A DNA stretch of 64,000 nucleotides from contig JAJFUB010000029.1 of the NCBI GenBank assembly GCA_021372615.1, positions 1 through 64,000 on the forward strand. The letters run 5' to 3'. Position 1 is the first letter of the stretch. Every line of letters starts with the position of its first letter. Source of the stretch: a bacterium (GTDB lineage Bacteria; Armatimonadota; Zipacnadia; Zipacnadales; UBA11051). Under the pieces are notes generated by a model. The model was not told the DNA's origin and made no database searches. It saw nothing but the letters and a program-made list of their open reading frames with translations. The translations under genes were made by a program, and so were the position numbers. Positions 7,345-64,000 of the stretch are shown piece after piece.

Positions 7345-7797
7345 ACCGGCGTGACAACGTCGTCCGCGGGGTGGTAGATAGCGCGCGGCGTCTCCGCCTC
7401 CGCAGCCATGGTGCGATTGTACATCTCGCAGATCAGGCGGTCAAAGTGGCTGAACCCTCGGGGCTGTTGGCCTGAGGCCCTCTCTGGCGCGCACAGGCGC
7501 GACTGCATCTACCTCATGTCACAGCTGATGTGCACAGCGCCGACACAACTTGACCCAGCCACGACCACCACTCTGCGCTCTGAAAGCTACGGGGGCGCCA
7601 GGAGGTGTATCGCCTTCGGCGGCGAAATAGAGGCGCTACACACAGTTTCGCCATAGCAGCGTACTCGGTTGGCCGGGGGGTAGTGGTGCCGGCTCAAGCT
7701 GCAGTCCCCTGTTCCCCCTGACCTGTCGCACCACACCTGGTTGACCGCGGGCGCCATCAACGGCGGTCGCCGGTCTCGCACTGGCAAGGATCAGACC
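7345..7797. other. Gap upstream of the restriction-modification operon
   Basis: This is about 450 bp between the methylase remnant and hsdM. No complete gene is visible. A short GC hairpin lies near 7610-7623 (CGCCTTCGGCGGCG), and the ribosome binding site of hsdM is AAGGAT at about 7787-7792. The hsdM promoter should lie here, but no clear -35/-10 pair could be assigned by eye. Confidence 0.4.
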
Positions 7798-10503: not shown

Positions 10504-11887
10504 CCAGACACAGATCGACCGGCTCATACCGGAGCAACTTGGCGAGGACACCGGCGGCGTGTCGGCCTGCGACCAAGGGCGCAGCGCGAAGAGCGCGCCA
10601 GGTAGCTGGAGTGAGGTCTCGCTCTTGGACGTTGTCCCCCGCGCCGAGTATGGGATCTCCGTGCCTCTCGATGGCCAGCCTGAGGGCGTCCCCGTGCTGC
10701 GCATGGGCAACCTCACCGGCGGCACCGTCGATCTGTCCGACCTGAAGTACTCCCGTTCGCCAGAGGCCAAGGCAGCGCTTCTGCAGGACAGGGATGTTCT
10801 GTTCAACCGCACGAACAGCTTCGACCACGTTGGCCGCACCTCGATATGGCACAGCGAACTGCCTGAAGCCTCCTTTGCTTCGTACCTCGTCCGGCTGATC
10901 CCCGACCCCGAGATGGTGACGCCCGAGTTCCTGACGCTGTGGTTCAACCTCGCTGCCACCCAGATCGCCATTCGACGTTATGCCACCCCCGGAGTTCACC
11001 AAGTCAACATCAACCCGACCAACCTCCGCCGGGTGATGATCTACCTGCCTGACACTCTGCCCCCGCAGCGCAAGATCGCTCGCATCCTGTCCACGGTGGA
11101 CGACCTGATCGAGCAGACGGAGGCGCTGGTCGCCAAGCAGCAGGCCATCAAGCAGGGGATGATGCACGACCTCCTGACGCGGGGTGTGGACGACGACGGG
11201 CACTTGCGGCCAAGCTTCTACGAGGCACCAGAGCTGTACCGAGAGACGGAGCTGGGATGGCTGCCGGCATCGTGGGAGCCGAGGCTGCTGGGGCAACTCG
11301 TGTCGCCGCAGCGACCCATCGCCTATGGCATCCTGATGCCCGGCTATGGCCACCCCGGGGGAGTACCAGTCATCAAGGTGAAGGACATTCGGGAGGGCCA
11401 GATCCAGACTGACGACCTCCTGCTGACAAGTCCAGAGATCGACGAGGCCTACAAGCGGTCACGCGTCCGGGAAGGTGATCTTCTCTTCAGCATCCGCGGC
11501 ACCGTGGGGCGCATGGCCATCGTCCCGCAGCATCTGTCAGACGCGAACATCACACAGGACACGGCGCGGATCGGGCTGGTGGAGGGCGATGCCCGGTTCA
11601 TCAGCGCGTACCTCGGGATGCCTGCGCCCGCGAGCTTCATCGCCAGCCACACACTCGGCGTTGCCGTCCAGGGCATCAACCTGGGCGACGTTCGCCTCAT
11701 ACCCGTAGCCTTTCCGTTGCCAGACGAGCAGACGGCGATCGGCGACATTCTGGACGCCCAGGAGGCGGCGGTCGTGGCTGAACAACGGCAACTGGCAAAG
11801 CTGCGCCTCCTGAAGGGCGGCCTGATGCACGACCTCCTGACCGGCGAGGTACCGGTCACACCAGACGAGGGGGACAACGATGTCTGA
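10493..11887 (+). CDS. hsdS: Type I restriction-modification specificity subunit
   Basis: The 464-residue protein has the two-fold HsdS layout. The first target-recognition domain spans about 30-160 and is followed by a conserved helical repeat (LPPQRKIARILSTVDDLIEQ, then GMMHDLLTRG). The second spans about 230-390 and ends with a matching helical repeat (LPDEQTAIGDILDAQE, then GGLMHDLLTGEV). It dictates the bipartite target bound by the methylase and restriction complexes. The ATG overlaps the end of hsdM and its stop overlaps the hsdR start, so the three are translationally coupled. Target sequence cannot be predicted from the protein by eye. Confidence 0.95.
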   Translation: MQSDQTQIDRLIPEQLGEDTGGVSACDQGRSAKSAPGSWSEVSLLDVVPRAEYGISVPLDGQPEGVPVLRMGNLTGGTVDLSDLKYSRSPEAKAALLQDRDVLFNRTNSFDHVGRTSIWHSELPEASFASYLVRLIPDPEMVTPEFLTLWFNLAATQIAIRRYATPGVHQVNINPTNLRRVMIYLPDTLPPQRKIARILSTVDDLIEQTEALVAKQQAIKQGMMHDLLTRGVDDDGHLRPSFYEAPELYRETELGWLPASWEPRLLGQLVSPQRPIAYGILMPGYGHPGGVPVIKVKDIREGQIQTDDLLLTSPEIDEAYKRSRVREGDLLFSIRGTVGRMAIVPQHLSDANITQDTARIGLVEGDARFISAYLGMPAPASFIASHTLGVAVQGINLGDVRLIPVAFPLPDEQTAIGDILDAQEAAVVAEQRQLAKLRLLKGGLMHDLLTGEVPVTPDEGDNDV

Positions 11888-14800
11888 GTACTCGCTGGTC
11901 GAGAAGCCGTTTCTGGAGCAGCTGGGGGCGCTGGGCTGGATCGTCGTCGACCAAGGGCCGGCCTACCCCACCGACCCCTCCCAGAGCCTGCGCGAGAGCT
12001 TCCGCGAGACGATCCTCCGCGACATCTTCTTCCAGAGCGTCCGCGACATCAACCTCACCGAAGATGGCCAGGAATGGCTCACAGACGCGCAACTGGAGGA
12101 GTTGCTCGTCTCGGTGTCCCAACGGCCCGGAGAGAGCCTGACAGAAGCCAATGAGAGCATCCTGAAGCTGCTTCTGAGACACCAGGTCGACGAGAACGAG
12201 CTGACGGGCGAGCAGTACCCCAATGTCCAGCTGATTGACTTCCACCACCCCGAGCGCAACCACTTCTTCGCCATCAACCAGTTCCGCATCGACACTCCCG
12301 GCTGTGTGGACGACTGCATCATCCCCGACATCGTCCTGTTCGTGAACGGGATGCCGCTGGCGGTCGTGGAGTGCAAGCTGGCGAGCGCGACTGAAGCCGA
12401 CCCGATGTGTGAGGCGTTTGTGCAGCTGATGCGGTACTCGGGCCGGCGTGAGGCGACGACCGAGGCCGGCCTGCGCGAGGGAGAGCCGGAGCTGTTCTAC
12501 ACCAACCAGCTCCTGATCCGCACGACCGGCGAAGAGGCGCAGTTCGGCACGATCACCTCGACGGATGAGGAGTACTTCTACCCCTGGCGAGACATCTGGC
12601 CGACGGAGTACGCCGAGTATGAGCCGCCGCTCGGCCAGGAGCGGGAGCAGGAGATCCTGATCCAGGGGATGCTGCCCAAGGCGACGCTACTCGACCTGGT
12701 GCGCAACTGCACGGTCTTCATGGACGTTGACGACGGCAAGGCGCGGGCGAAAGTCGTGGCGCGGTACCAGCAGTACCGGGCGGTACTGAAGATCATCGAC
12801 CGCCTGCGCACGGGCCAGACGCAGATGGAGCGCTCGGGCGTCATCTGGCACACACAGGGGTCGGGCAAGAGCCTGACGATGGTCTTTGCCATCCGAAAGC
12901 TACGGATGTGCGAGGACCTCAAGGACTACAAGGTCGTCCTCATCAACGACCGGGTCGACCTCGAGGAGCAGCTGAGTAAGACGGCGCGGTTGACGGGCGA
13001 GCCGGTGACCGTGATCGACAGCACGGCGGAGCTGCGGCACCAGCTGGCGACCGATGCCTCGAACCTGAACATGGTGATGGTGCACAAGTTCCAGGAGGTT
13101 CAGGGGCGCCTGCCCGACTACCTGGAGAGCGTCCTGACCATCCCGCGCTACGAGACCTTCGGCACGATCAATGGCTCCGACCGCATCCTGCTGATGGTGG
13201 ACGAGGCGCACCGGACGCAGTCGGGAGACCTGGGCGACAACCTCTTCTACGCCTTCCCCAACGCCGCGAAACTGGCGTTCACCGGGACGCCTCTGATTGT
13301 GACCGAGGAAGGCAACCAGACTGCCCGGCGCTTCGCCGGGTACATCGACAAGTACAAGCTCCACGACGCTGAGCGCGACCACGCGGTAGTCAGGATCCTG
13401 TACGAGGGGAAGGCTTCGAACGACTGGGTCGGGGAGCGGGCCACGTTCGACAAGGAAGTGGACACGACGGCAGCCGCGCACGTCACATCGCAGCTGCGCA
13501 AGGAGAGCAACGTCGAGAAGCTGTCGCGCTGGGCGCGGGAGCAGCAGCGCCCCTTCGAGGACCTGCTGAAGGAGCATACTGCCGCGGAGATCGCCGCGCT
13601 CAAGGCCCGCTGGGGGACGTATGACAACCTACTGGAGGCGGACAAGCGCATCGCCGAGATCGCCAAGGACCTCGTGAAGCACTACGTCGAGGAGGTCCTC
13701 CCCAACGGCTTCAAGGCCCAGGTGGTCTGCGGTTCGAAGATGGCCGCGGTGAGGTACAAGCAGCACATCGACGCGGCCCTGGCCGCCATGCTGGCCGACG
13801 AACAGGCGAAACCGCCGTGGCACGGCGACCCGCGCGAGATCCCTGACGAGACCCGCACGGAGTGGCAGGACGCGGAGCTGTGCAGTAAGCTGACGTTCCT
13901 GCAATCGGTGGTCGTGGTCTCGCCCGAGACCACCAACGAGCGGGCGGTCATCACCGAAGCCCGCCGACATGCCCAGAGCGTGAACGCGGTCGAGAACTTC
14001 AAGGCCCCGTTCAACCAGGAGGACCCGGAGAAGGTCAACACCGGGATCGCGTTCCTGATCGTCTGCGACATGCTGCTGACCGGCTTCGACGCTCCGATCG
14101 AGCAGGTCATGTACATCGACAAGCACGTCCAGAACCACAACCTGCTGCAGACGATCGCGCGCGTGAACCGCGTGGCCAAGGGCAAGCGGCGCGGCTACAT
14201 CGTGGACTACATCGGCCTGGCGAACCACCTGAAGGAGGCCCTGTCCATCTACGCCGCGGATGACCAGCGGGACATCGAGGACACTTTCAGGGACATCAGC
14301 AGCGAGCTGCCGATCCTGGAGGAGCGCTACCAGCGCCTCCTGCACCTGTTCGTCGACGATGGCGTGACGGGCATCGAGGACTTCGTGCAGCAGCGTGTCA
14401 CGGGCCGCGAGGAGGCAGAGGTCTGCGAACAGGCCATCGTGCTGATGGAGAACGTTGAGCTGCGGGCAACCTTTGAGGTCTACCTGGAGCGGTTCCTGCA
14501 GAGCCTCGACATCATCCTGCCACATGAGGCCGCGATGCCGTACAAGGTACCGGCCAAGCGCTTCGCGTATCTGCTGTTCCGGATCAGGGACAGGTACCGC
14601 GACGAGACGCTGAGCATCTCTGACGCCGGCGAGAAGATCAGGCGCATCATCGACGCCTACCTCCTCAGCGAGGGGATCGACCCGAAGGTCAAACCGACCG
14701 AGTTGCTGTCGCCGCGGTTCGTGACCGAAGTGCAGACCATCACCACGTCTCGCGCCAAGGCCAGCACGATGGAACACGCCATCCGCCGGCACCTCAAAGC

Positions 14801-15260
14801 GAACTACGGCCAAGATCCTGCCCTGTATGCGAAGTTGAGCGACAGGCTGGACGCACTCATCAAGCAGTACCAGGACAACTGGGAGGCGCTCAGCAAGGAA
14901 CTGGAGCAGCTGCGCCTGGACATCGAGGCGGGCCGGACGGATAGCCCACAGGGGGTGAGTGCGAGGGTGGCCCCGTTCTACGCGCTCATGGGGCAGATCG
15001 CCTTCGGTGAGGACATTGTGCCTCCAGAGCAAGCTAACAAGCTTGCTCAGTTGGCCGACCAAGCTGTGGAGATGCTGCGGTCGCGGATCGGCATCGTGGA
15101 CTTCTGGAACAACCAGCCCGAGGTCACCAGCCTCAGGGGCGACCTCTCGGACATCCTGCTGATGTCTGAGATCGATGGCGTGGTCGACAAGGTCGACAAG
15201 CTGGTCACAGAGTTGCTGCACTTGGCCAAGTACCGACATGCGGATGTCATGCGACCATGA
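11880..15260 (+). CDS. hsdR: Type I restriction endonuclease subunit
   Basis: The 1126-residue protein is the ATP-driven translocase and nuclease of the R-M complex. The N-terminal PD-(D/E)xK nuclease has Asp150 in IIPDIVLF and Glu164/Lys166 in VVECKLAS. Superfamily II helicase motifs follow: HTQGSGKS at 324-331 (Walker A), DEAH at 441-444 and AFTGTPL shortly after. A helicase C-terminal domain and a helical HsdM-binding tail complete the usual length. The ATG overlaps the end of hsdS, and the 3' end overlaps the next gene by ATGA. All key residues seen are intact, so the enzyme should be active. Confidence 0.96.
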   Translation: MSEYSLVEKPFLEQLGALGWIVVDQGPAYPTDPSQSLRESFRETILRDIFFQSVRDINLTEDGQEWLTDAQLEELLVSVSQRPGESLTEANESILKLLLRHQVDENELTGEQYPNVQLIDFHHPERNHFFAINQFRIDTPGCVDDCIIPDIVLFVNGMPLAVVECKLASATEADPMCEAFVQLMRYSGRREATTEAGLREGEPELFYTNQLLIRTTGEEAQFGTITSTDEEYFYPWRDIWPTEYAEYEPPLGQEREQEILIQGMLPKATLLDLVRNCTVFMDVDDGKARAKVVARYQQYRAVLKIIDRLRTGQTQMERSGVIWHTQGSGKSLTMVFAIRKLRMCEDLKDYKVVLINDRVDLEEQLSKTARLTGEPVTVIDSTAELRHQLATDASNLNMVMVHKFQEVQGRLPDYLESVLTIPRYETFGTINGSDRILLMVDEAHRTQSGDLGDNLFYAFPNAAKLAFTGTPLIVTEEGNQTARRFAGYIDKYKLHDAERDHAVVRILYEGKASNDWVGERATFDKEVDTTAAAHVTSQLRKESNVEKLSRWAREQQRPFEDLLKEHTAAEIAALKARWGTYDNLLEADKRIAEIAKDLVKHYVEEVLPNGFKAQVVCGSKMAAVRYKQHIDAALAAMLADEQAKPPWHGDPREIPDETRTEWQDAELCSKLTFLQSVVVVSPETTNERAVITEARRHAQSVNAVENFKAPFNQEDPEKVNTGIAFLIVCDMLLTGFDAPIEQVMYIDKHVQNHNLLQTIARVNRVAKGKRRGYIVDYIGLANHLKEALSIYAADDQRDIEDTFRDISSELPILEERYQRLLHLFVDDGVTGIEDFVQQRVTGREEAEVCEQAIVLMENVELRATFEVYLERFLQSLDIILPHEAAMPYKVPAKRFAYLLFRIRDRYRDETLSISDAGEKIRRIIDAYLLSEGIDPKVKPTELLSPRFVTEVQTITTSRAKASTMEHAIRRHLKANYGQDPALYAKLSDRLDALIKQYQDNWEALSKELEQLRLDIEAGRTDSPQGVSARVAPFYALMGQIAFGEDIVPPEQANKLAQLADQAVEMLRSRIGIVDFWNNQPEVTSLRGDLSDILLMSEIDGVVDKVDKLVTELLHLAKYRHADVMRP

Positions 15261-46050: not shown

Positions 46051-46818
46051 ATGCTTGATGAACTCCTGACCGGGCGCACGATCCGCAAGGACAGCCCCAT
46101 TCCCTACTACTACCAACTCGCCCAGATTCTGCGCGAGGCGATGGATGACGTCAGCGCCGGCGCGGCTGACGGCGAGGAGATCGCGTTGCCCTCCGAGCCG
46201 GCGCTGTCGGCGCGGTTCGACGTCACCCGGGGTACGGTCCGCCACGCGCTGCAGATCCTGGAACGCGAGGGGCTGATCGTGCGCGAAAAGGGACGCGGCA
46301 CCTTCATGCGCCGCCGGCGGGTGGAGCTGGACCTGACGGAGTTGTCCTCTATTGCCGCCCACATGCGCGACCAGCACTGGGCCGCCGAGTACCGCCTGCT
46401 GGGGGTCGAGCGTGGACCAGCGCGTCCCCAGGCGCAACGGGCGTTGGGGCTGGGGGCGGGTGAGGAGGTATGGGAGGTGCGGCGGCTGCGGCTGGCCGAT
46501 GGCGAGCCGGTCAGCGCCGAGACCTCGATCATCCCCTGCCGCCTGGCCCCCGACCTGCCCGCCGCCGACCTGACCACCTCGCTCTACGAGACGCTGCGGT
46601 CGCGCTACGGCTTCGGGCTGCGGACCTCGGAGCAGACGATCCGGACGCGGGCCGCCGACGTGGAGGAGGCCGGCCTGCTGGCCCTGCGCGCCGGCGATCC
46701 TTTGTTCGTCATCACCGGCGTCCTGGCCGACGCACAGGGCACGCCGGTGGAATACTCACGGTCCCTGTGGCGCGGGGACCGCTATGACCTGCAGGTGCGC
46801 CTCGTCAGCCGCGAGTAG
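46051..46818 (+). CDS. GntR-family (HutC/UTRA) transcriptional regulator
   Basis: The 255-residue protein starts at the ATG at 46051; a TTG at 46027 would add eight residues. An N-terminal winged helix follows the GntR pattern: PIPYYYQLAQILREAM, then LPSEPALSARFDVTRGTVRHA and GLIVREKGRGTFM. The C-terminal UTRA domain has RLRLADGEPVSAETSIIP and PLFVITGVLADAQGTPVEYS. It should repress the divergent operon and perhaps the downstream rhamnosidase genes, and release DNA on binding a sugar ligand. The operator at 45940 is the expected target. Confidence 0.92.
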   Translation: MLDELLTGRTIRKDSPIPYYYQLAQILREAMDDVSAGAADGEEIALPSEPALSARFDVTRGTVRHALQILEREGLIVREKGRGTFMRRRRVELDLTELSSIAAHMRDQHWAAEYRLLGVERGPARPQAQRALGLGAGEEVWEVRRLRLADGEPVSAETSIIPCRLAPDLPAADLTTSLYETLRSRYGFGLRTSEQTIRTRAADVEEAGLLALRAGDPLFVITGVLADAQGTPVEYSRSLWRGDRYDLQVRLVSRE

Positions 46819-46897
46819 CGTGCTGCGATCACTACGCCGCGGGGGGCCTGACGGCTCGCCGCCGCGACCGGCGCCACTGCCCGAGGGAGACAGCCCG

Positions 46898-49800
46898 ATG
46901 AGTGACCTCCGCCGCCCCCTGTGGAACAACCTGACCCCCAACGACCTGTTGTCCGCGCTCGCCCGCCCGCCGGATCGCTACCGGCCGGTGCCCTGGCTAT
47001 CCTGGACCGGCGACCTGCACTGGGAGGGCCTGAAGGCGCAGCTTGACCAGATGCGCGCCCAGGGCCTCACCGAGTTCTTCCTCTTCCCGGTCTACGGCAT
47101 GGAGCTGCCCTACATGTCGCTGGAGTACTGGGAGCGGGTCCGGCAGACCCTGGAGCACTGCCGCGCCACGGGGATGAAGTGCTGGATCTACGACGAGTAC
47201 AACTGGCCCAGCGGCATCTGCGCCGGCACAGTGACCCGCGACCACCCGGACGCTCGCGAGCACCTGCTGTGGCTGCACCACGAGGCGGGAGAGGAGGAGA
47301 CGCCGGGGCTGCCGGCCGGGGTGAAGCAGACGTGCCGTAGCGGGGGCGTGGAGTGGGCGACGGCCGAGGGAGCCGCGCGACGCACGAGCGTGCGGGGCGG
47401 CGACTGGGTCGGCAACATGCCCGGCTACCTGGACATGCTCGACCCGGAGGCCTGCGAACGCTTCCTGGACAGCACGCACCGCCGCTACCTAGCCCAGGCC
47501 CCCGACATGTTCCCTGAGACGATCCCCGGGTTCTTCACCGATGAGCCCGGCTTCGCCCACCCGGGCCTCCCCCGGGGCACTGGCGGTTGGCTGGCTCTGC
47601 CCTACACCGGCGACCTCTTCGCCAGCTTCCAGCAGCGCTATGGCTATGACCTCCGCGACCGTCTGGGCGACCTGCTCGCCGACACGCCGACCGCTCCGCA
47701 GACCCGGTGCCATTACTGGCGCTGGGTCGCTGAGCGCTACGGCGAGGCCTACGCCGGAACGATCCGCCGCTGGTGCGACGAGCACGGGGTGGCGTTCACG
47801 GGGCATTGCCTGGGGGAGGAGGTGCTCTCGCTGCACGCACGGATGGAGGGCGACCTGTGGGAGGCCATGAAGCACTACACCATCCCCGGCATTGACATGC
47901 TGGCCAATGCGGACGGGTACACCTACCCCGAGCGGATGAGCTTCTACGGGGATCTGGATCGCCGGGCCTTCCACCTGACCTGCAAGTGCGTCCACGCCAT
48001 CTGCCGCCACACCGGGGCGCGGGAGATGATGAGCGAGGCCTACGGGGTCTGCGACTGGGGCATCAACCTGCAGCGGCAGAAGCGCGGCTTCCACTACCAG
48101 GTGGCCCTCGGCGTCACCCTGTTCAATGACAACACGCTGATCACCTCGGTCGCCGACTTCCGCAAGTACGCCCTCGCCGGCAAGCACTTCACGCAGCCGT
48201 GGTGGGAGCATTACCAGCTCTACGCGGACTACAACGCGCGCCTGGCGGCCCTGCACGCCGAGGGCGAGCCGGTGGCCGAGGTGGCGGTGCTGTACCCGCG
48301 CTCGGCCGTGTGGGCCCAGATGGACATCGGGGTCTTCACGAGGGCGTGGCTCGACCCGCAGCCGGGCCACCCGCTGACCCAGCTCGGGGAGCAGGTGTAT
48401 GAGCTGCTTGATGAACTGATCCGCGAGCACTGGATGTTCGACTTCGTCTTCGAGCCGGTGCTGGCGGAGGCGCGGGTGGAAGGCGCCGAACTGGTGACCG
48501 AGCACTGCCGCTACCGGGCGATCGTGGTACCCTCCGCCCGGTACCTGCCGGCGGCGTGCCTGCAGGTGCTGCAGCAGTTCGCCGCCGCGGGCGGACAGGT
48601 CATCTTCACCGGCGCGCTACCTGAGTACGAGGCCGACACCCAGGCCAGTCTGGCCGTTGAGGTCGGCGCGTTGCTGGCCCAGGCGACGGTGGCGCAGGTT
48701 GAGGCGGCGGGGGCGCAGGTGCGCGACGCGCTGGCGACCCGTCTGCGCCCCGCGCTGGTGCTCGAGGGTGAGGACCGGCGGGAGTTCATCAGCTCGTGGC
48801 GGCGGATCGCCGACAGTGACGTGCTGTTCCTCGCGAACATGGCCCGGCGGGACACGGAGGTCACGATCCGCACCGACTTGAGCGGGCCGCTCGCGGTCGT
48901 GGACCCCTTCAGCCTGCAAGCCTACCGCCCCGCGGTCGAGGCGGGCGCGATCCGCTGGCGCTTCGCGCCCTGGCAGGGCATCCTGCTCGTGAGCGGCCCG
49001 GCGGCGGCAGCGCTGGGCGAGGACTTGCCGGCGCGGCCCGCCTGGCAGGAGGCCCGGCGCGTCGTGGCGCTGGACGGCGCATGGGACTTCGACCTGCAGC
49101 CCGGCAACATGCTGCGACCGGCGCTGCAAGCCAAGCCCGACCCCGATAACAACGGCGCTGCCGAGGGCTGGCAGCATGACACCGGCGAGGCCGGCTGGGT
49201 GGCAGCCGATGGGAGCTGGCTGCCTGACCCGATCCGCCCCGGCGACGCCCCGTGGTACTGGCTGCGCGCCGAGGTGACCTGCGAAGCGGGTGCCCACCCA
49301 CGGCGCATCGTGGTGGATAGCCGTGACTTCCTGGAGCTGTTCGTGAATGGCCGGCCCGCCGAGCAGACGCCCGGGATGCCGCTGTGGGCCGAAGAGAACG
49401 TGCACTACGACGTGGACGGGCTGTTCCGCGCAGGGGCCAACACGGTCCACATACGCGTGCGGACCAGCAAGTACAACGATCCGCGCGTGGCCGCCTTCCC
49501 TGGCCGGACCGACCGCCTGTTGCAGCCGGTCGTGGTGCTGGGGGAGTTCCGCGTGGAGGGGCAGACACTGCTGGCGCCGCGCCCGCAGGTGCGGGCGGAT
49601 CAGCCCTGGGAGCAGCAGGGCATGCCGCAGGCGGCAGGCACGGGCATCTATCGGCGGCGGCTGGAGGTGGCGGCCGGGGCAAGAGTCTTCCTGCGGCTGC
49701 CGGAGGTCGTGGATGCCGTGGAGGTCTTCGTCAATGGCCAGTCGGCCGGTCGGACGGCCTGGCCCCCGTACGTCTTCGACCTGACCGACCTGCTGCACGG

Positions 49801-49933
49801 CGGGGAGAACGATCTAGAGATCCGCGTCAGCAACACTCTGGGCAACCTGATCACAGAGACCTACGGCGGCGCCCAGCCGCCGGAGTACCCGACCAGCGGC
49901 CTGCAGGCAGCCCCCCAGTTGCTGTTCCTGTAG
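46898..49933 (+). CDS. GH106-like alpha-L-rhamnosidase
   Basis: The 1011-residue protein has GAGGGAGA before the ATG at 46898. The N-terminal LWNNLTPNDLLSALARPPDR and KCWIYDEYNWPSG are characteristic of GH106-type barrels, with PGFFTDEPGFAHPG as a likely catalytic-loop region. The C-terminal about 250 residues contain galactose-binding-like beta-sandwich segments (RIVVDSRDFLELFVNGRPA, then VDAVEVFVNGQSAGRTAWPP). No signal peptide is seen, so it may act in the cytoplasm on imported oligosaccharides. It follows the GntR gene by about 80 bp and precedes the lyase-like gene. Rhamnose release fits the kinase and isomerase. Confidence 0.83.
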   Translation: MSDLRRPLWNNLTPNDLLSALARPPDRYRPVPWLSWTGDLHWEGLKAQLDQMRAQGLTEFFLFPVYGMELPYMSLEYWERVRQTLEHCRATGMKCWIYDEYNWPSGICAGTVTRDHPDAREHLLWLHHEAGEEETPGLPAGVKQTCRSGGVEWATAEGAARRTSVRGGDWVGNMPGYLDMLDPEACERFLDSTHRRYLAQAPDMFPETIPGFFTDEPGFAHPGLPRGTGGWLALPYTGDLFASFQQRYGYDLRDRLGDLLADTPTAPQTRCHYWRWVAERYGEAYAGTIRRWCDEHGVAFTGHCLGEEVLSLHARMEGDLWEAMKHYTIPGIDMLANADGYTYPERMSFYGDLDRRAFHLTCKCVHAICRHTGAREMMSEAYGVCDWGINLQRQKRGFHYQVALGVTLFNDNTLITSVADFRKYALAGKHFTQPWWEHYQLYADYNARLAALHAEGEPVAEVAVLYPRSAVWAQMDIGVFTRAWLDPQPGHPLTQLGEQVYELLDELIREHWMFDFVFEPVLAEARVEGAELVTEHCRYRAIVVPSARYLPAACLQVLQQFAAAGGQVIFTGALPEYEADTQASLAVEVGALLAQATVAQVEAAGAQVRDALATRLRPALVLEGEDRREFISSWRRIADSDVLFLANMARRDTEVTIRTDLSGPLAVVDPFSLQAYRPAVEAGAIRWRFAPWQGILLVSGPAAAALGEDLPARPAWQEARRVVALDGAWDFDLQPGNMLRPALQAKPDPDNNGAAEGWQHDTGEAGWVAADGSWLPDPIRPGDAPWYWLRAEVTCEAGAHPRRIVVDSRDFLELFVNGRPAEQTPGMPLWAEENVHYDVDGLFRAGANTVHIRVRTSKYNDPRVAAFPGRTDRLLQPVVVLGEFRVEGQTLLAPRPQVRADQPWEQQGMPQAAGTGIYRRRLEVAAGARVFLRLPEVVDAVEVFVNGQSAGRTAWPPYVFDLTDLLHGGENDLEIRVSNTLGNLITETYGGAQPPEYPTSGLQAAPQLLFL

Positions 49934-49993
49934 GCGCGGGGGCGCCTGCACAGCCGCCATGACGCGACACCGCAGCCGTCAGGGGTGAGGCCC

Positions 49994-52900
49994 ATGCGCC
50001 GGTCCGTCCGCGTGCTCGTCACTCTGGTGTTGGCGCTGCTCGTAGCAGGCAGCCTGCCCGCCGCGCCCGCGGGCTGTCTCATGCGGGTCAATGATGTCAG
50101 CGGCTTCACTGGAGCCTGGCCGCTGGTGGGAGGGCTGCCGCTGCCGCAGGGCGCGGTGCGCGACCCGGGGCAGGTGCGTGTCTGCGATGCCCGGGGCCGG
50201 GAGATCCCCGCGCAGGTGGACACCGCCGCCACGTACCGCGATGGCAGCCTGCGCTGGGCGCTGATCAGCCTCATGGCCCCACCGCAGGGCACCGTCCGGG
50301 CCGAGTACGGCCCCGGCGTCAGGCGCGCTGCCGTTCAGGGCCTCCGGATCACCCGCGATGGGGGACAGGTGCGGGTCAGCACCGGCGCCGCCGACTTCAC
50401 CCTCGATGGCGGCAATCTCCTGCTCCAGAGCGCGGAACTCACCGGCGCGGGACGCCTCCCCCTGTGGGGGCCCGGCGAGAACTACGCCTACCTGGTGGAC
50501 AACCAGGGCCGCACGGCCCGCTGTGCCGGGCCCCAGGCGGGCGTAGAGATCACCACGCTCAAGAGCGGGCCGCTGCGGGCGGTGCTGCGCACTGAGGGGT
50601 GGTATGTGACCGACACCGGCGAGCGCCTGGCGCGGGGCATCGCGCGGCTCAGCTTCTTCGCCGGCAGCCCGATGGTCCAGATCAGCCACTCCCTCGTCTT
50701 CACCGAGGACACCAACCGGCTCTGGCTCAAGGACTACGGGATCGAGGTCCCGGTGCGCGGCGGCACGCGCGCGGTGTTCGACACCAGCCAGGCCCACGAC
50801 GCCACGACGCAGGCGGTGGCGCTGCCAGCCGGGGCCAGCGCGAGCCTCCTACAGGATGACTACCCCCATCTCGCGGAGACTGGCTCGCACTTCTCGCTGA
50901 CGGTCCGGGACGGCCAGACAGCCCGCGAGGTCGCGACCGGACCGGCCTGTGGCGAGTGGTGCGACCTCGCCTCGGACCGCGTGGGCCTGACCGTGGCGCT
51001 ACGCGACCTGGCCGAGCAGTTCCCGAAGGAACTGGAGGCGCGGGCGCAGGGGATCCGCGTCCATCTGTGGCCCGAGCGCAGCGGGCGCGAACTGGACTTC
51101 CGCGCCGCGACGCTGGTCAAGGACTACTGGCAGTCATGGGCGGCACTCGCGCCCGGCGGGGCCGAGGCCCTGGCCAAGACCGCCAGCAACGCCCAGGGGG
51201 CGAGCAAGACCCACGAGCTGTGGCTCATGCCCCATCGCAGCGCGCCCGAGGTCCCCGCCATCGCGCGGCAGTGCCACGCGGCCTGCGAGCCGCCGCTGCT
51301 TCAAGCCGACCCCACGGCGCTCTGCGCCAGCGGCGCCCTCACCTGGCCCGTGCACCCCTACGACCCCCAGCGCTTCCCGGCCGAGGAAGCCATGATCTCG
51401 GACTTCTTCGACCGCCTCACGCTGCCGTACAAGGTCTTCCCGATGACCGGCCTCATCGCCTGGGGCTGCCACCCGTACCTGGACTACACGCGGCGGGACG
51501 GCAAGTGGTATGCCGTCTTCTACCGGCTGTCGCAACTGGTGGACTACGGGATGCGGCGGCATGTGTGGACCCTCTACGCCCGCTCCGGCGACCGCCGTTA
51601 CTATGACTACGCCGCACGCTTCGATCGCTTCGCCGCCGACTGGGAGATGGCACACGTCACGACCGGCCAGAAGATCAAGGGCGGCTTCGCCGTCGGGGAC
51701 ATCCACAAGCCGCTTTACTGGGGCACCAGCAGCCTCGTGCTGAACACCGACATCTCCGGCCATGACATCGCGAACTGGCTGCTGGAGTACTACCTGACCG
51801 GCGATGAGCGCGCGCTGGAGGCGACCCGCGAGTTCGGTGAGGCGGTCAAGCAGACCTGGGACCTGAAGGCCGCGCGCGCGGGCTATTGCCCCTTCGTCAT
51901 CACCCGCGTGCTCACGGCGTTGTACACCCGCGAGTGGGACGAGAGCTTCCACACCATGGCACGCGACCTCGCCCACCAGATCATTGCCCCCCAGAGCCCC
52001 AACTACCTCACCAACGAGATGGCCTACGGGGCGCTGTACAAGGTGGACCGCAATGCCGCCGCGCTGTACGACTACTGGTGGGCGACGGGCGATGACCTCG
52101 CCCGGCAGGCCTTCCTGAAGGCCATGGACTACCAGTACCGCTTCAACCGCATCCCGCCGGCCATCGAGTACCAGAACGGCGGCGCCTACCTACTGACGAT
52201 TGCGTACCAGTGGACCGGGCGGCCGGAGTATGCCGCGGCGGTGCAGCAACTGGTGCGCGGCGGGCTGGCAGCGGAGGGCAAGCCCCTGGCGGAGGAGTTG
52301 ACGGGCGACCCGCGTCTGTCCGAGAGGCTACCCTACCGTGGGGTGCACCTGAACATGCACACGACGCTCGGGCTGCCGACGGCGCTGGCGCTGCTGGCGG
52401 GACTGGACAAGCCGCCGCCCTCGTTCCCGATCCTGGTCAAGTCCTTCCAGTCCGACGACGCCACCGCGATCTTCGCCAAGCCCGCCGGGCAGGGGGTGAC
52501 GCTGGGGGTCTATGTGCAGACGACGCAGGCCGGGGAGGTCGGGGTGCAGGTGCTCGGGCCCGATGGCGCGCCCGTCGCCGCGGAGGTGAAGACCGAGGAG
52601 CGCATCGCCTCCTACGCCCCCTCGCAGTTCCGCCACTTCAGCCTGCGGGTCAAGGTCCCGGCCGCAGCGCCCGCCGGCCTGTATCAGGTCGTGCCGGGGC
52701 CGACGGAGGAGTTCGTCGTTCAGGACGCGAGCGTGCCGCAGGTGAGTCTCGCCTGTCCGAGCGGGGCGTGGCTGGGGGGTGGGGGACTGGCGGCCGGGAT
52801 GCCGCTGTACTTCCGCGTGCCGCCGGGCCAGCAGCGCGTAGACCTCCTCGTGGGTCGCCCGGTGACGGTTCGGCGGCCCGACGGGAGCGTCGCCCTGGAG

Positions 52901-53821
52901 CCCACGAACGAAGGCATCGGTCGCGTCAGTCTGCCGGTCCAGGGCGCGGCGGGCGCGTGGTCGGTGCATTCCCCGTGGCCCGCGCACGTGCAGTTGCTGA
53001 ACCTGGACCCGGTGGTGGCCTACGGCGACCCCGCCCGGCTGATCCAGTCGCCCGCACCGTCCCTCCGCCGCACCGATCCTGCCCTGCCGTCGCCGCAAGA
53101 GACGTTCGTGCCCGGGGTGATGGGCCAGGCGCTGCAACTGGCCGGCGACCGCACCATCGGCTTCGCGCCCGGCGAGCGCCTCGCCGACGGCAGCACCCAG
53201 CACCTGCCCACCACCGAGGGCACCATCGAGCTGTGGTTCCGGCCCAACTGGAGCAGCAGCGAGTTGCCCTTCCGCGATGGGCAGCTTCTGCAGCGTGACT
53301 TCCTGCGCGCCGGCGCGATCAACTTCTACTACCGCTACGGCCAGGGCCCCGTGCGCGACAACCTGTACTCCTACGTGGACCTGCTCACCCGGGGCAAGCT
53401 CGGGGCGCCCGGACGGGAGACCGACGGACTCATCGGCGGCCATGCGCGCCACTTCATGCAGAAGGCGCAATGGGTCCACCTGGCCGCCACCTGGCAACTG
53501 CAGCAGGGAAAGCGTGGCACCGAGGGCAGCTTCGCCGTGTTCGTCAATGGCGAGAAGATGGAGCCGACGTGGAACTACCCGCGCAGCCTGACCGGACGCG
53601 ATCCGTACCGGCTGCAGGAGGTCGCCGCGCGGATCGTGCTCGGCGCGTGTGACGGCTGCCTCGATGAGCTGCGGGTGTCACGGGTGCGGCGCTACGAGGG
53701 TGACTTCACGCCCTCCCGGCAGCCGTTCGCGCCCGATGCCCAGACCGCCGCGCTCTTCCACTTTGACGGGTGCCTGAACGGGCTGTCGGGGGCGGAGGGG
53801 GCCGTCATCGCGGCCCAGTGA
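49994..53821 (+). CDS. Secreted exo-rhamnogalacturonan-lyase-like protein (RIFT barrel plus LamG)
   Basis: The 1275-residue protein has GGGGTGAGG before the ATG at 49994. A signal peptide (VLVTLVLALLVAGSLPAAPA) is followed by NDVSGFTGAWPLVGGLPLPQ and RYRDGSLRWALISL-like text (here TYRDGSLRWALISLMAPP), the start of PcRGLX/YetA-type RIFT barrels. The long helical middle (DYAARFDRFAADWEMAHV, then KAMDYQYRFN) suits an alpha/alpha barrel. The C-terminus has EGTIELWFRPNW, WVHLAATWQL and FAVFVNGEKM, a LamG/concanavalin-like domain. The family degrades rhamnogalacturonan I, so the gene supports a pectin locus with the rhamnosidase upstream. Confidence 0.8.
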   Translation: MRRSVRVLVTLVLALLVAGSLPAAPAGCLMRVNDVSGFTGAWPLVGGLPLPQGAVRDPGQVRVCDARGREIPAQVDTAATYRDGSLRWALISLMAPPQGTVRAEYGPGVRRAAVQGLRITRDGGQVRVSTGAADFTLDGGNLLLQSAELTGAGRLPLWGPGENYAYLVDNQGRTARCAGPQAGVEITTLKSGPLRAVLRTEGWYVTDTGERLARGIARLSFFAGSPMVQISHSLVFTEDTNRLWLKDYGIEVPVRGGTRAVFDTSQAHDATTQAVALPAGASASLLQDDYPHLAETGSHFSLTVRDGQTAREVATGPACGEWCDLASDRVGLTVALRDLAEQFPKELEARAQGIRVHLWPERSGRELDFRAATLVKDYWQSWAALAPGGAEALAKTASNAQGASKTHELWLMPHRSAPEVPAIARQCHAACEPPLLQADPTALCASGALTWPVHPYDPQRFPAEEAMISDFFDRLTLPYKVFPMTGLIAWGCHPYLDYTRRDGKWYAVFYRLSQLVDYGMRRHVWTLYARSGDRRYYDYAARFDRFAADWEMAHVTTGQKIKGGFAVGDIHKPLYWGTSSLVLNTDISGHDIANWLLEYYLTGDERALEATREFGEAVKQTWDLKAARAGYCPFVITRVLTALYTREWDESFHTMARDLAHQIIAPQSPNYLTNEMAYGALYKVDRNAAALYDYWWATGDDLARQAFLKAMDYQYRFNRIPPAIEYQNGGAYLLTIAYQWTGRPEYAAAVQQLVRGGLAAEGKPLAEELTGDPRLSERLPYRGVHLNMHTTLGLPTALALLAGLDKPPPSFPILVKSFQSDDATAIFAKPAGQGVTLGVYVQTTQAGEVGVQVLGPDGAPVAAEVKTEERIASYAPSQFRHFSLRVKVPAAAPAGLYQVVPGPTEEFVVQDASVPQVSLACPSGAWLGGGGLAAGMPLYFRVPPGQQRVDLLVGRPVTVRRPDGSVALEPTNEGIGRVSLPVQGAAGAWSVHSPWPAHVQLLNLDPVVAYGDPARLIQSPAPSLRRTDPALPSPQETFVPGVMGQALQLAGDRTIGFAPGERLADGSTQHLPTTEGTIELWFRPNWSSSELPFRDGQLLQRDFLRAGAINFYYRYGQGPVRDNLYSYVDLLTRGKLGAPGRETDGLIGGHARHFMQKAQWVHLAATWQLQQGKRGTEGSFAVFVNGEKMEPTWNYPRSLTGRDPYRLQEVAARIVLGACDGCLDELRVSRVRRYEGDFTPSRQPFAPDAQTAALFHFDGCLNGLSGAEGAVIAAQ

Positions 53822-58880: not shown

Positions 58881-59300
58881 GCAGATCGCTCCTTCATTGG
58901 CCTGGTCCACCTGGCGCCGCCATTCTACCACAACAGCCGGGCGCGCATAGGAGGAAACGGGGAATGGCCCAAGGCCGGACGTACGAAGTAGCCACCGGGC
59001 ACGGGTGTCGGCAACAGCGGGTCTTCCCCGGCGGACGGCCACCCGGTGGTGCAAGGTTGACCAGAGGCCGAAGGGAAGCCGGACCTGGACGGGGAAAGTG
59101 GCCAAGGCGTCGGGCAAGCGGGGCGCAACACCCAGACGGTCGAGGGGTGTGCCGGAGGGACACTTCCCGACGACGTGGTACAGCAGGCGTGCCGGGGCGA
59201 CAGACCCGGCCGTGACACCCCGACTGGCCCCGTTCCCGGCGCAGGGGGGCGGTATCCCAGCGCGCTGTACGGGCGCCCTCACAGGAGGCGAAGCCCCGGA
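58881..59300. other. Divergent promoter region
   Basis: This 420-bp gap separates the GH5-like gene (minus) from the membrane protein gene (plus). CCACCGGG near 58993 and CCCGGTGG near 59041 form an imperfectly spaced inverted repeat that could be an operator. No further gene, riboswitch or terminator is recognised. Confidence 0.4.
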
Positions 59301-61316
59301 TTGAGCGCCGAGCACCCAGCCCCATCATCAGCCGCCTACAAGGCCGTGCCCGCCTCCGGTGACGGCCTCAGGGCCGTCGGCCTCGGTCGCTACGGTGTGA
59401 GCACCCGTGCGGTCGTGATTGCGCTGGTGCTCACATGGCTCGCGGGCTACTGGATCCGCCAGTCGGAGATCGTCGCCCTGGCGTGCCAGGGAACCGAAGC
59501 GGTCCCCTCGATCCCCGGCGTCGGCGCCCTGTTGCTGGTTCTGCTGGGCAATGCCCTGGCGCGTCGGACACGCTTCGTGCGCCCCTTGTGTGTACCCGAG
59601 ATCATCACGGTCTTCCTGCTTGTCACCGTGGCCACCACGATGTTCGGCTGCGGCATCGGCCGCTTCCTGCTGGCATGCCTCACCGCACCCTTCTACTACA
59701 GCAGCCCCGCCGCCCCCCTGGAGAAGCTCGCGGCCCATATCCCGTTCTGGATGTCGCCCCAGGATCCCACCGTGCACCGCTGGCTCTATGAGAGCGCACC
59801 CACCGGTGACGTTCCCTGGGTGGCGTGGCAGTGGCCGATCGCCGCCTGGACGGGCTTCTTCCTCATGTTTGGCGGCATGTTGCTGTGCCTGATGTTGCTG
59901 CTCAGCGAGCGGTGGGTCGGGGAGGAGCGGCTCGTGTTCCCGCTGGTGCGGCTGCCGCTGCAGATGATTGACCCGGAGTACTCGGACGTGCCCTTCTTCC
60001 GCAATCGGGCCACCTGGATTGGCATCGGGCTGGCCGCCGCCCTCAACGCCCTCAACATCGTGCGCGGGGTGTTCTTCGGTGGGCCCAGCGGCGGCCTGCA
60101 GGTGGACCTGGCGTCGCAGTTCGTCGGCGCCCCCTGGAGCTCACTGCGCCCCCTCAACGTCCATCTGCGACCGGAATTGATCGGTCTGAGCTACCTGATC
60201 TCCACCGAACTGTCGTTCTCGATCTGGTTCTTCCAGTTGTTCGCGAAGCTCCAGAGCTTCCTGATCAGCGGGGTGATCGGGCTGCGTCTGCCGGGCGCGC
60301 CCTTTGCTCAGGAACAGGGCCTCGGCGCCTACGTGACCATGGGGGCGATTCTGTTCTGGAAAGGGCGCCACCCATTTGTCGCCGGTTGGCGGGAACTGGC
60401 GACGAGCATGCACGGAGGCCGCCCCTCTCGCGGGATCTCCCTGCGCTGGCCAGTCATCGGTGCACTGGCCGGGTTCGTCGGCGCAGTGATCTTCTGCCGG
60501 GCGGCCGGCATGGCCACGTGGCTGGCATTGCTCTACCTGGCAGTCATCACCAGCGTCGCCGTGGTGTACGGTCGGCTGCGGGCCGAGACCGGCGTGCCAC
60601 TGGTCTGGGCTTTCCCCTACGGTCTGGGCCACAAGGCGATTCGCTACTTCATGAACTCCGCCTCCTATGTGGGCATGGGCGGGGAGCCTCGCTCGGCCAC
60701 CATCTTCACGCTGCTGCTCTTCATGTCCCGAGGCTACTTCCCGACCATGACCGGCTACGGTATCGAGGGCTATGCCCTGGGACAGAGCACGGGCATCAGC
60801 AAGGGGGGCGTCTTCAGGATCGTGCTGCTCGCCATCGGCGTAGGCGCGGTCTGCTCGTTCTTCTTCCATCTGACCACCTACTACGACCATGGGGCTGTGG
60901 GGTTGCGGGGTGGGCTGTGGGGCGCCTCGGAGGCGCAGGCCCAGTACGCCGCCCTCTGGCAAGCCACCAAGATGCCGGTGCCGCCGGATGTGCCGCGCAT
61001 CATCGCCACCCTCTCCGGCGGGACCTTGCTGGGGCTGCTCAGCATCGTGCGCGGGCGGTTCTTCGGGTTCCCCTTCCACCCTCTGGGCTACGCCATGGCT
61101 TGTTCGTACGGAGAGTTGCTGTGGGGGCCTTTCCTGCTGACCTGGACGATCAAGTCACTGCTGTTGCACTACGGTGGGCCCAAGGCCTACCTCGCCGCCC
61201 TCCCGGGCTTCCTGGGCTTCGCGCTGGGGCACTTCGTCGTTGCCGGGGCCATCTGGGGCACTCTGGGCGCCGCTCTCGGGGGGCCTTTCCTGCGCTACGG
61301 CGTGTGGTTCGGGTAG
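59301..61316 (+). CDS. Multi-spanning membrane protein (DUF6785/DUF6784-like)
   Basis: The protein has about 671 residues, with a TTG at 59301 after AGGAGGCG as the best start; the spacing is long, so a later GTG is possible. About a dozen hydrophobic segments are visible, for example VVIALVLTWLAGYWI, ALLLVLLGNALA, IITVFLLVTVATTMF and GFVGAVIFC. SERWVGEERLVFPLVRLPLQ and HPLGYAMACSYGELLWGPFL are typical of this family of unknown transporters or permease-like proteins. It sits between the GH5-like and GH3 genes, so sugar or oligomer uptake is a fair guess. Confidence 0.75.
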   Translation: MSAEHPAPSSAAYKAVPASGDGLRAVGLGRYGVSTRAVVIALVLTWLAGYWIRQSEIVALACQGTEAVPSIPGVGALLLVLLGNALARRTRFVRPLCVPEIITVFLLVTVATTMFGCGIGRFLLACLTAPFYYSSPAAPLEKLAAHIPFWMSPQDPTVHRWLYESAPTGDVPWVAWQWPIAAWTGFFLMFGGMLLCLMLLLSERWVGEERLVFPLVRLPLQMIDPEYSDVPFFRNRATWIGIGLAAALNALNIVRGVFFGGPSGGLQVDLASQFVGAPWSSLRPLNVHLRPELIGLSYLISTELSFSIWFFQLFAKLQSFLISGVIGLRLPGAPFAQEQGLGAYVTMGAILFWKGRHPFVAGWRELATSMHGGRPSRGISLRWPVIGALAGFVGAVIFCRAAGMATWLALLYLAVITSVAVVYGRLRAETGVPLVWAFPYGLGHKAIRYFMNSASYVGMGGEPRSATIFTLLLFMSRGYFPTMTGYGIEGYALGQSTGISKGGVFRIVLLAIGVGAVCSFFFHLTTYYDHGAVGLRGGLWGASEAQAQYAALWQATKMPVPPDVPRIIATLSGGTLLGLLSIVRGRFFGFPFHPLGYAMACSYGELLWGPFLLTWTIKSLLLHYGGPKAYLAALPGFLGFALGHFVVAGAIWGTLGAALGGPFLRYGVWFG

Positions 61317-61334: not shown

Positions 61335-63335
61335 CTACGTGAGGCGGAGCACCCCTGTCACGAAGCTCCCCGTCGCCCCCGGACCGGGCTGGCCGCCGCC
61401 GATGGCGAGCAGGAATTCTCCTGGCTCGAGCATGGGCTCGCCGGCCTCGCTGTAGCAGACGAGCTGCTCCGGGCGGAGTGTGAAGCTGACCTGGCGCTGC
61501 TCGCCCGGTTGCAGGTGCACTCGCTGGCAGCCCTGCAGTTGCCGCAACGGCACCGCGACTGTGGCCTCCAGGTCAGTCACGTAGAGTTGCACGACCTCAT
61601 CCCCCGGGCGATCACCGACATTGGTCACGGTGGCGCCCAGCACGACCTGTTCACCCGTCCTGGCCTTGTGCGGGGTAACCGTCAGGTCGCCATAGGCGAA
61701 GCGCGTGTAGCTCAAGCCATAGCCGAAGCGGTACAGGGTCTCGGCCTCGGAGAAGCGATAGGTGCGCCCCGCCATGCCGTAGTCGCTGAAGGCGGGCAGT
61801 TGGTCGAGCGACCGGTAGAACGTCACCGGCAGGCGTCCGGCCGGGCTGACGTCGCCCCAGAGCACTTCAGCCAGCGCGGTCCCCGCCTCCTCGCCACCGT
61901 ACCACGTCGCCAGGATCGCGTTCACGTGCTCCTCGGCCCAGTTCACCGCAATCGCACTGCCCGAGAGGAGGACCAGGACGACAGGCTTCCCCACCGCCGC
62001 CACCTCCCGCAGCAAGGCCTCCTGGATCGGCGGCAGGTCAATGTATGTGCGGTCGCCGCTGCGGTTGAGGTCAGAGTCGCCCTCCTCGCCCTCGAGGCGC
62101 GGGGAGAGGCCGAGGACCATGACCACCACGTCGGCCTCCGCCGCCAGCGCCACGGCCTGGGCGAAGCCCGAGCGGTCCTCGCCGACGAGGTCGCAGCCGC
62201 GAGCGTAGCTGACCGCCACGCTCTCGCCTGCGCGACGCATGATGCCCTGCAGGGGCGTCACGGCCGCCGAGGGCTCACCGTTGTAGTTGCCCAACAACAC
62301 CGACACATCGTCCGCGTTCGGGCCGATGACCGCGAGGCGCTTCACGTCCGCCGCCAGCGGCAGCACGCCATCGTTCTTGAGCAGCACGATGGACTCTTGC
62401 GCCGCGAGCAGAGCCAGCGCGCGGTGTGCGGCGCAGTCGTTCACCTCCAGGGGGATCCCAGCGTATGGCACGCGTTCGGGCGGGTCGAACATGCCCAGCC
62501 GGAAGCGGGCCTCGAGCAGCCGCTGCAGCGACACGTCCAGTTCCGCCTCGGAGATCAGGCCCTGCTCCACTGCGCCCGTCAGTGCGCCGTAGGTGCAGCC
62601 GCAGTTGAGATCGCAGCCGGCCTTGACCGACAGGGCTGCCGCCTCCTCGGGGCTGGCGCTGCATGCCTCCCCGTTGACGCGGTTGTAGGCCGACATGATG
62701 GACCCGGCCCCCGCCTCGACGACGGCTCGGAAATGCGGCAGGTAGCTCTCGCGTAGATCGCGTGGGCTGACGACGGCGTCGAAGCCGTGGCGTTCGGCCT
62801 CGGGGCCGCTGTGCACGGCGAAGTGCTTCGGGGTGGCCACCAGCTTCAGGTAGTGCGGGTCATCGCCCTGGAGGCCCTTGACGAACGCCACGCCGAGCAG
62901 TGCGGCCAGGTAGGGGCATTCGCCGTAGGTCTCCTGCCCGCGCCCCCAGCGGGGGTCGCGGAAGAGATTGATGTTCGGCGTCCAAAAGGTGAGGCCGTAG
63001 TACCACAAAGAGCCGCCGTCGGCCGACAGGGCCGCATGATGCTTGGCGCGGGCCTCATCGGAGATGGCGGTGGCTACGCGGAAGACAAGGTCGGCGTCGA
63101 AGGTCGCCGCCAGGCCGATGGCCTGGGGGAAGACGGTGGCGACCCCCGCCCGGCCCACACCATGGAGGCATTCGTTCCACCAGTTGTAGGCCGGGACGCC
63201 CAGGCGGGGGATGGCGAAGGCATCGTGGACCATCTGCGAGACCTTCTCTGCCAGCGTCATGCGGCCGCACAGGTCGCGAGCGCGGTCAGCGGGGGAGAGG
63301 TCAGGGTTGAGGTAGGCGGGCGTCTCGTCGGCCAT
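61335..63335 (-). CDS. GH3 family beta-glycosidase, apparently lacking its nucleophile segment
   Basis: The 666-residue protein starts at the ATG at 63335. The GH3 N-terminal barrel (GVPAYNWWNECLHGV, RDPRWGRGQETYGE, ATPKHFAVHSGPE) and the C-terminal fibronectin-like domain (VTNVGDRPGDEVVQLYV) match GH3 xylosidases. However, IMSAYNRVNGEACSASP is joined directly to EEAAALSVKAGCDLNCGC. In GH3 xylosidases the stretch between (WGFxGYVVSDCGA...) carries the nucleophile Asp and is about 35-45 residues. That piece is missing here, so the enzyme is likely inactive unless the sequence is misassembled. Confidence 0.85.
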   Translation of the reverse strand: MADETPAYLNPDLSPADRARDLCGRMTLAEKVSQMVHDAFAIPRLGVPAYNWWNECLHGVGRAGVATVFPQAIGLAATFDADLVFRVATAISDEARAKHHAALSADGGSLWYYGLTFWTPNINLFRDPRWGRGQETYGECPYLAALLGVAFVKGLQGDDPHYLKLVATPKHFAVHSGPEAERHGFDAVVSPRDLRESYLPHFRAVVEAGAGSIMSAYNRVNGEACSASPEEAAALSVKAGCDLNCGCTYGALTGAVEQGLISEAELDVSLQRLLEARFRLGMFDPPERVPYAGIPLEVNDCAAHRALALLAAQESIVLLKNDGVLPLAADVKRLAVIGPNADDVSVLLGNYNGEPSAAVTPLQGIMRRAGESVAVSYARGCDLVGEDRSGFAQAVALAAEADVVVMVLGLSPRLEGEEGDSDLNRSGDRTYIDLPPIQEALLREVAAVGKPVVLVLLSGSAIAVNWAEEHVNAILATWYGGEEAGTALAEVLWGDVSPAGRLPVTFYRSLDQLPAFSDYGMAGRTYRFSEAETLYRFGYGLSYTRFAYGDLTVTPHKARTGEQVVLGATVTNVGDRPGDEVVQLYVTDLEATVAVPLRQLQGCQRVHLQPGEQRQVSFTLRPEQLVCYSEAGEPMLEPGEFLLAIGGGQPGPGATGSFVTGVLRLT

Positions 63336-63458: not shown

Positions 63459-64000
63459 ATGAAGACCATCTTCCTGAGCGTGGCCATGGGGCTGGTCCTC
63501 GCCAGTGTGGCCATGCAGCTGACGCTGCCGGGCACCCGCAGCGAGGTGCCGGTCATCTACTGGGTGACCGACCCCAATCCCGCGCGCGAGGAGCAGATCC
63601 GCCTCTTCCAGGAGTGGCTGAAGAAGCACCACTACCCGCGGATCGAGCTGCGCCTCGACACCGCCAACAATGACACCTCCAAGAAGATCATCCAGGGCGT
63701 GTCGGGCGTGGGCGGGGACTGCATTGACATCGGCTCCGGCGGAGGGATGCGCTACTTCAACTCCATCGGCCTGCTGACCGACGTGACCCCGTGGGCCAGG
63801 GAGATGGGCTTCGACCCGAGCCATACCTACCCGGCGATGAAGACGGAGATCACCACCGACGGCCACCAGTACATGTTCCCCTGCAACTGCTACGACCACC
63901 TGTACTGGGTCAACAAGGCCACCTTCCGGAAGTACGGCCAGCCCCTCCCCCCGCTGACGTGGGACCTGCAGACCTTCGAGCGCCTCGGCAAGGCCCATGT
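63459..64000 (+). CDS. ABC transporter sugar-binding protein, 5' part (runs off the window)
   Basis: The start is the ATG at 63459; the first about 23 residues (KTIFLSVAMGLVLASVAM) form a signal or anchor segment. It continues with IYWVTDPNPAREEQIRLFQEW, the strand/helix start of extracellular solute-binding family 1, then DIGSGGGMRYFNSIGLLTDV and TDGHQYMFPCNCYDHLYWVN. The 3' end lies outside the window. No clear ribosome binding site is seen. It is divergent from the GH3 gene, with about 120 bp between, and probably starts the uptake genes of this locus. Confidence 0.85.
   Translation, partial: MKTIFLSVAMGLVLASVAMQLTLPGTRSEVPVIYWVTDPNPAREEQIRLFQEWLKKHHYPRIELRLDTANNDTSKKIIQGVSGVGGDCIDIGSGGGMRYFNSIGLLTDVTPWAREMGFDPSHTYPAMKTEITTDGHQYMFPCNCYDHLYWVNKATFRKYGQPLPPLTWDLQTFERLGKAH

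Follow-up and report, generated by a model that had tools for sequence, protein, structure and literature searches.

The question raised by this locus is why a gene for a protein of the GH3 beta-xylosidase type lacks, with its reading frame preserved, the segment that bears the catalytic nucleophile in its relatives. The window analyzed was a stretch of 64,000 nucleotides, bases 1 to 64000 of contig C29, from a 6.4-Mb metagenome-assembled genome (MAG) of the phylum Armatimonadota with 171 contigs (96.7% complete, 2.9% contaminated). The gap may be a recent inactivating deletion, the mark of a protein kept for another purpose, a natural variant using another nucleophile, or an error made between cell and assembly. 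Most likely, the gene is a broken copy of recent date or contains a small assembly error, rather than being a new kind of protein.

A GH3 gene of the xylosidase type

The gene and its parts were positioned in the window as follows.

61335 to 63335, reverse strand: GH3 beta-xylosidase-type gene, 666 aa, stop-free, with an internal 111-bp deletion
62652 to 63314, reverse strand: N-terminal part of the (beta/alpha)8 barrel, residues 8 to 228, 86% identical to the nearest relative, in genome G001
62649 to 62656, reverse strand: deletion junction, CCAGCCCC on the coding strand, Ala227-Ser228-Pro229, from the alignment with relatives
62454 to 62651, reverse strand: remainder of the barrel past the junction, residues 229 to 294, beginning directly with PEEAAALSVKAGCDLNCG
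61707 to 62390, reverse strand: GH3 C-terminal alpha/beta domain, PF01915, residues 316 to 543
61395 to 61598, reverse strand: Fn3-like domain, PF14310, residues 580 to 647, from a Pfam match

The reading frame from 63335 to 61335 is uninterrupted throughout and passes from SIMSAYNRVNGEACSAS directly into PEEAAALSVKAGCDLNCG. The first-pass annotation had called the product a GH3 enzyme, which was borne out by the Pfam domains and a Xyl3A-type best match. PF00933 (112.3 bits, cut-off 27) and PF01915 (200.5 bits, cut-off 31) both scored above the Pfam cut-offs, placing the open reading frame (ORF) in the GH3 family by sequence and fold. The best curated match was NCBIfam NF041776, xylosidase_Xyl3A, with 744.5 bits, which is under the curated cut-off of 1250 bits. 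An EGEEGD motif at residues 415 to 420, with E415 and E417 invariant in the alignment of the relatives (A1), contains the presumed acid/base Glu. A third acidic residue of the active site is Glu (E91) in GH3 xylosidases and Asp in glucosidases (PMC7519651); by a motif-based assignment, the xylosidase-type residue is present here in an NWWNE motif, the E55 of which is invariant in A1.

The gene next to it was positioned as follows.

63459 to 64000, forward strand: start of a gene for an extracellular sugar-binding protein, divergent from the GH3 gene and continuing past the window

Two ABC permease genes come after the gene for the sugar-binding protein. Given that the GH3 gene faces away from these genes, cleavage of imported oligosaccharides within the cell would be the most plausible role of the intact enzyme. 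On the other side, a gene for a DUF6785/DUF6784 membrane protein without an assigned function (59175 to 61316, forward strand) converges tail-to-tail on the GH3 gene, whose stop codon is 18 bp away. Two very large consecutive proteins are encoded at 46784 to 53821 on the forward strand, a distant GH106/GH2-like protein (1049 aa) followed by a PcRGLX-like protein (1278 aa) with a weak laminin-G-like match. Together with a second PcRGLX-like protein outside the window, at contig positions 74188 to 78036, this region suggests a neighborhood for the degradation of pectin or rhamnogalacturonan. Type I restriction-modification genes are located at 7741 to 15260 on the forward strand; they encode an HsdM N6-methylase and an HsdR-type helicase/nuclease and are separated by a 473-aa ORF.

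Extent and uniqueness of the gap

Exactly 37 residues (111 bp) are absent in frame between residues 228 and 229, and the stretch removed is the WGF-x-GYVVSDCGA segment with the nucleophile. The PF00933 match stops at query residue 229, which is position 231 of the 316 profile positions, and PDB and Pfam matches alike are interrupted exactly at this point. The spacing between shared landmarks is 34 residues in the window ORF versus 57 to 77 in about 100 aligned GH3 relatives, with 71 residues at the gap region in nearly all close relatives, including the nearest ones. Around the gap, the window reads ...MSAYNRVNGEACSASPEEAAALSVKAGCDLNCG... and the same region of the nearest relative ...MPAYNRTNGEACAASPTLLQRILRGEWGFQGYVVSDCGAIDDIYQHHKLASSPEEAAAISVRAGCDLNCG.... 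All of the approximately 100 aligned relatives, from many phyla, kept the nucleophile segment, and of a further 25 Armatimonadota loci that were inspected, so did every one with a gene that reaches across the region. The alignment thus confirmed the in-frame loss of the nucleophile-bearing segment claimed in the first-pass annotation, which had also judged the size correctly (about 35 to 45 residues) and had placed the suspect range at about 62640 to 62700, with the junction inside it.

The missing segment was not found elsewhere in the MAG. The MAG has two other genes of this kind, an intact GH3 gene (contig C55) and a GH3-like gene of shorter length (C121), and both are distant relatives. 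The same deletion occurred nowhere else in the family, class, or phylum when 291 Armatimonadota genomes from outside the genus of the window were searched, 64 of them with matches at an E value of 1e-60 or better, and the short form was also absent from 80 loci, mostly of other phyla, taken into the alignment of relatives. One candidate for the same deletion, a single-piece match in genome G281, was ruled out by its normal SDW segment. Another Armatimonadota relative (L153, G247:C1:1168716-1169714) has a 446-aa frame without the barrel part, and its gene looks truncated or frameshifted.

These comparisons bear on a GH3 sub-family with a naturally shorter spacing that uses another residue as the nucleophile. 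Such a family, named in the first-pass annotation as one of two findings that would overturn its view, was looked for among the aligned GH3 relatives, and none was seen. The shortest natural spacing, 57 residues in distant GH3 proteins, still has an SDW/TDW nucleophile, and the Asp is kept in all versions from 57 to 77 residues, with 71 in the nearest relatives. This explanation is barely credible.

Consequences for catalysis and fold

The counterpart of the lost Asp in the alignment is D281 of the beta-xylosidase of Thermotoga maritima. PDB entry 8c7f is the D281N/E517Q mutant of this enzyme, with Asp changed to Asn at the aligned position, and the structure of BglX D286N is titled "inactive mutant." An active retaining GH3 glycosidase has its nucleophile, an Asp, in the SD segment, which is absent here, and the product should not hydrolyze glycosides by the GH3 retaining mechanism, as judged from the sequence.

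The missing residues correspond to 251 to 287 of the intact relative L046, whose predicted structure has a helix at 251 to 261, a strand of the catalytic barrel at 267 to 270, and a helix at 274 to 280 within this segment. Compared to this intact model, the (beta/alpha)8 barrel is incomplete by a helix-strand-helix unit. The model predicted for the window protein kept the three-domain shape overall (mean pLDDT of 89.6, TM of 0.87 to 7vc6), with the pLDDT falling to 64 to 82 around the former active site (residues 51 to 60, 101 to 130, 171 to 190, and 211 to 230), blocks at which the model of the intact relative was mostly higher in confidence. The predicted fold is no proof that the shortened protein folds, because intact proteins make up the alignment that guided the prediction. 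The shortened product probably folds poorly in the barrel.

A direct repeat at the ends of the segment

In the nearest relative (locus L006, G001), each end of the segment carries a copy of the 8-nt direct repeat CCAGCCCG, the two copies being exactly 111 bp from each other, and the junction in the window reads GCCAGCCCCGAGGAG. No other 8-mer is repeated at a 111-bp spacing in the L006 gene; 8-mer matches occur at about 1 in 10,000 pairs of position and spacing. That the window lineage had the repeat before the deletion is inferred from this relative. Since the segment is kept in all relatives covering the region and is flanked by this repeat in the nearest one, the gap goes beyond chance. Replication slippage or strand annealing has as its standard product one remaining copy of the repeat and the loss of everything between, and a length of 8 nt is typical of slippage. 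The suggestion of the first-pass annotation that the deletion arose between short repeats gains support from this arrangement.

The events may have been as follows. A normal gene for an intracellular GH3 beta-xylosidase-type enzyme would have been the starting point, and two short direct repeats of about 8 nt may have caused the removal of 111 bp by slippage or annealing. This loss would have taken the barrel strand with the catalytic Asp plus one helix on each side, and the outcome would be a recent loss-of-function allele rather than an old, maintained non-catalytic protein. The mechanism is ordinary in kind. To this reading, a recent loss-of-function allele generated by a short-repeat deletion and real in the cells, we assign a probability of roughly 0.57.

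Age of the loss and selection outside the gap

The first-pass annotation had described the flanking motifs as intact and in frame, and the conserved sites outside the gap are indeed kept. The window protein differs at 2 of the 135 columns in which at least 95% of the relatives agree, compared to 0 to 2 differences in intact relatives. Against G001, the dN/dS ratio was about 0.10 on the N-terminal side of the gap and 0.18 on the C-terminal side (NG86; dS near 1, which is close to saturation). Relative-rate tests with the outgroups L007, L008, and L009 gave 45:39, 44:39, and 46:41 (chi2 of 0.3 to 0.4), indicating no acceleration; that with L041 gave 51:32 (chi2 of 4.35), a slight excess on the window branch, and the branch length was 0.19 for the window versus 0.14 for its sister. 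Intact conserved sites and a low dN/dS ratio indicate that the deletion is recent or, alternatively, an artefact of the library or assembly. An old pseudogene was rejected because more change would be expected.

The same data bear on the proposal of the first-pass annotation that a non-catalytic binding protein remained. A maintained GH3 protein that binds or senses xylo-oligosaccharides beside an ABC sugar-uptake operon would agree with the preserved frame, the purifying selection outside the gap, and the adjoining genes for the sugar-binding protein and the ABC permeases. No relative has the short form, however, neither in the 291 Armatimonadota genomes nor among the 80 loci mostly of other phyla; conservation at the former active-site positions matches that of active enzymes; and the deleted part comprises one strand plus two helices of the barrel core, which is more than a side chain. 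Long re-use for binding is disfavored because drift would be expected at the former catalytic positions, and none was seen. A search of the literature on non-catalytic GH3 proteins revealed nothing directly relevant. A maintained protein of this kind is very unlikely, and its more specific form, a GH3 protein re-purposed as a sugar-binding or regulatory protein tied to the ABC operon after the precise loss of about one barrel unit, is slightly more improbable still.

Real deletion or artefact

The gene may be truly intact; an assembly artefact was the other option given in the first-pass annotation. The 111 bp would then have been lost through an error of local assembly, through a collapse at a low-coverage scaffold join, or in a read that was chimeric or had arisen by PCR jumping. 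The short form was seen in one MAG only, and the remainder of the gene resembles that of an active enzyme without decay, as an artefact would give. PCR template jumping likewise uses short repeats and would fit. Curation of a single 1.13-Mb genome turned up 13 local assembly errors, which are common in uncurated MAGs (PMC7111523). The join is exactly in frame, however, which has a chance of 1 in 3, and the adjoining genes, wherever their Pfam match is good, align with the family in one piece without a break. A graph collapse at the junction is unlikely because an 8-nt repeat is far below the usual k-mers of assemblers. An artefact is thus a serious, although less probable, explanation, and on balance the deletion is probably real in the cells.

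In either case, annotation needs caution, since automatic calling would give a beta-xylosidase despite the absent catalytic nucleophile. A real deletion would be a clean case of gene inactivation by short-repeat deletion in an uncultured lineage, and an artefact would be a frame-preserving error missed by ordinary gene checks.

Comparison with known systems

In bacterial genes, loss-of-function deletions by replication slippage at short direct repeats show the same loss of one copy plus the intervening DNA; in the window, the repeat is taken from a relative and not from an ancestral sequence. The intact orthologue, on contig C24 of G001, belongs to another genus of the same family, with a protein identity of 86% in the N part and 73% in the C part. 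It differs from the window gene by the presence of the full segment with CCAGCCCG repeats at its ends and by its gene neighborhood, and the two contigs as a whole are not syntenic. The Xyl3A-type GH3 beta-xylosidases (NF041776; PcBxl3, 7vc6/7vc7; T. maritima, 7zb3/8c7f; XlnD, 6q7i) differ from the window protein by possession of the 37 residues with the catalytic Asp, and the window protein scores under the NF041776 cut-off (744.5 versus 1250 bits). They share with it the three-domain architecture and the motifs NWWNE, TPNIN, DPRWGR-QET, and KHF, as well as the EGEEG acid/base region and the Fn3-like domain.
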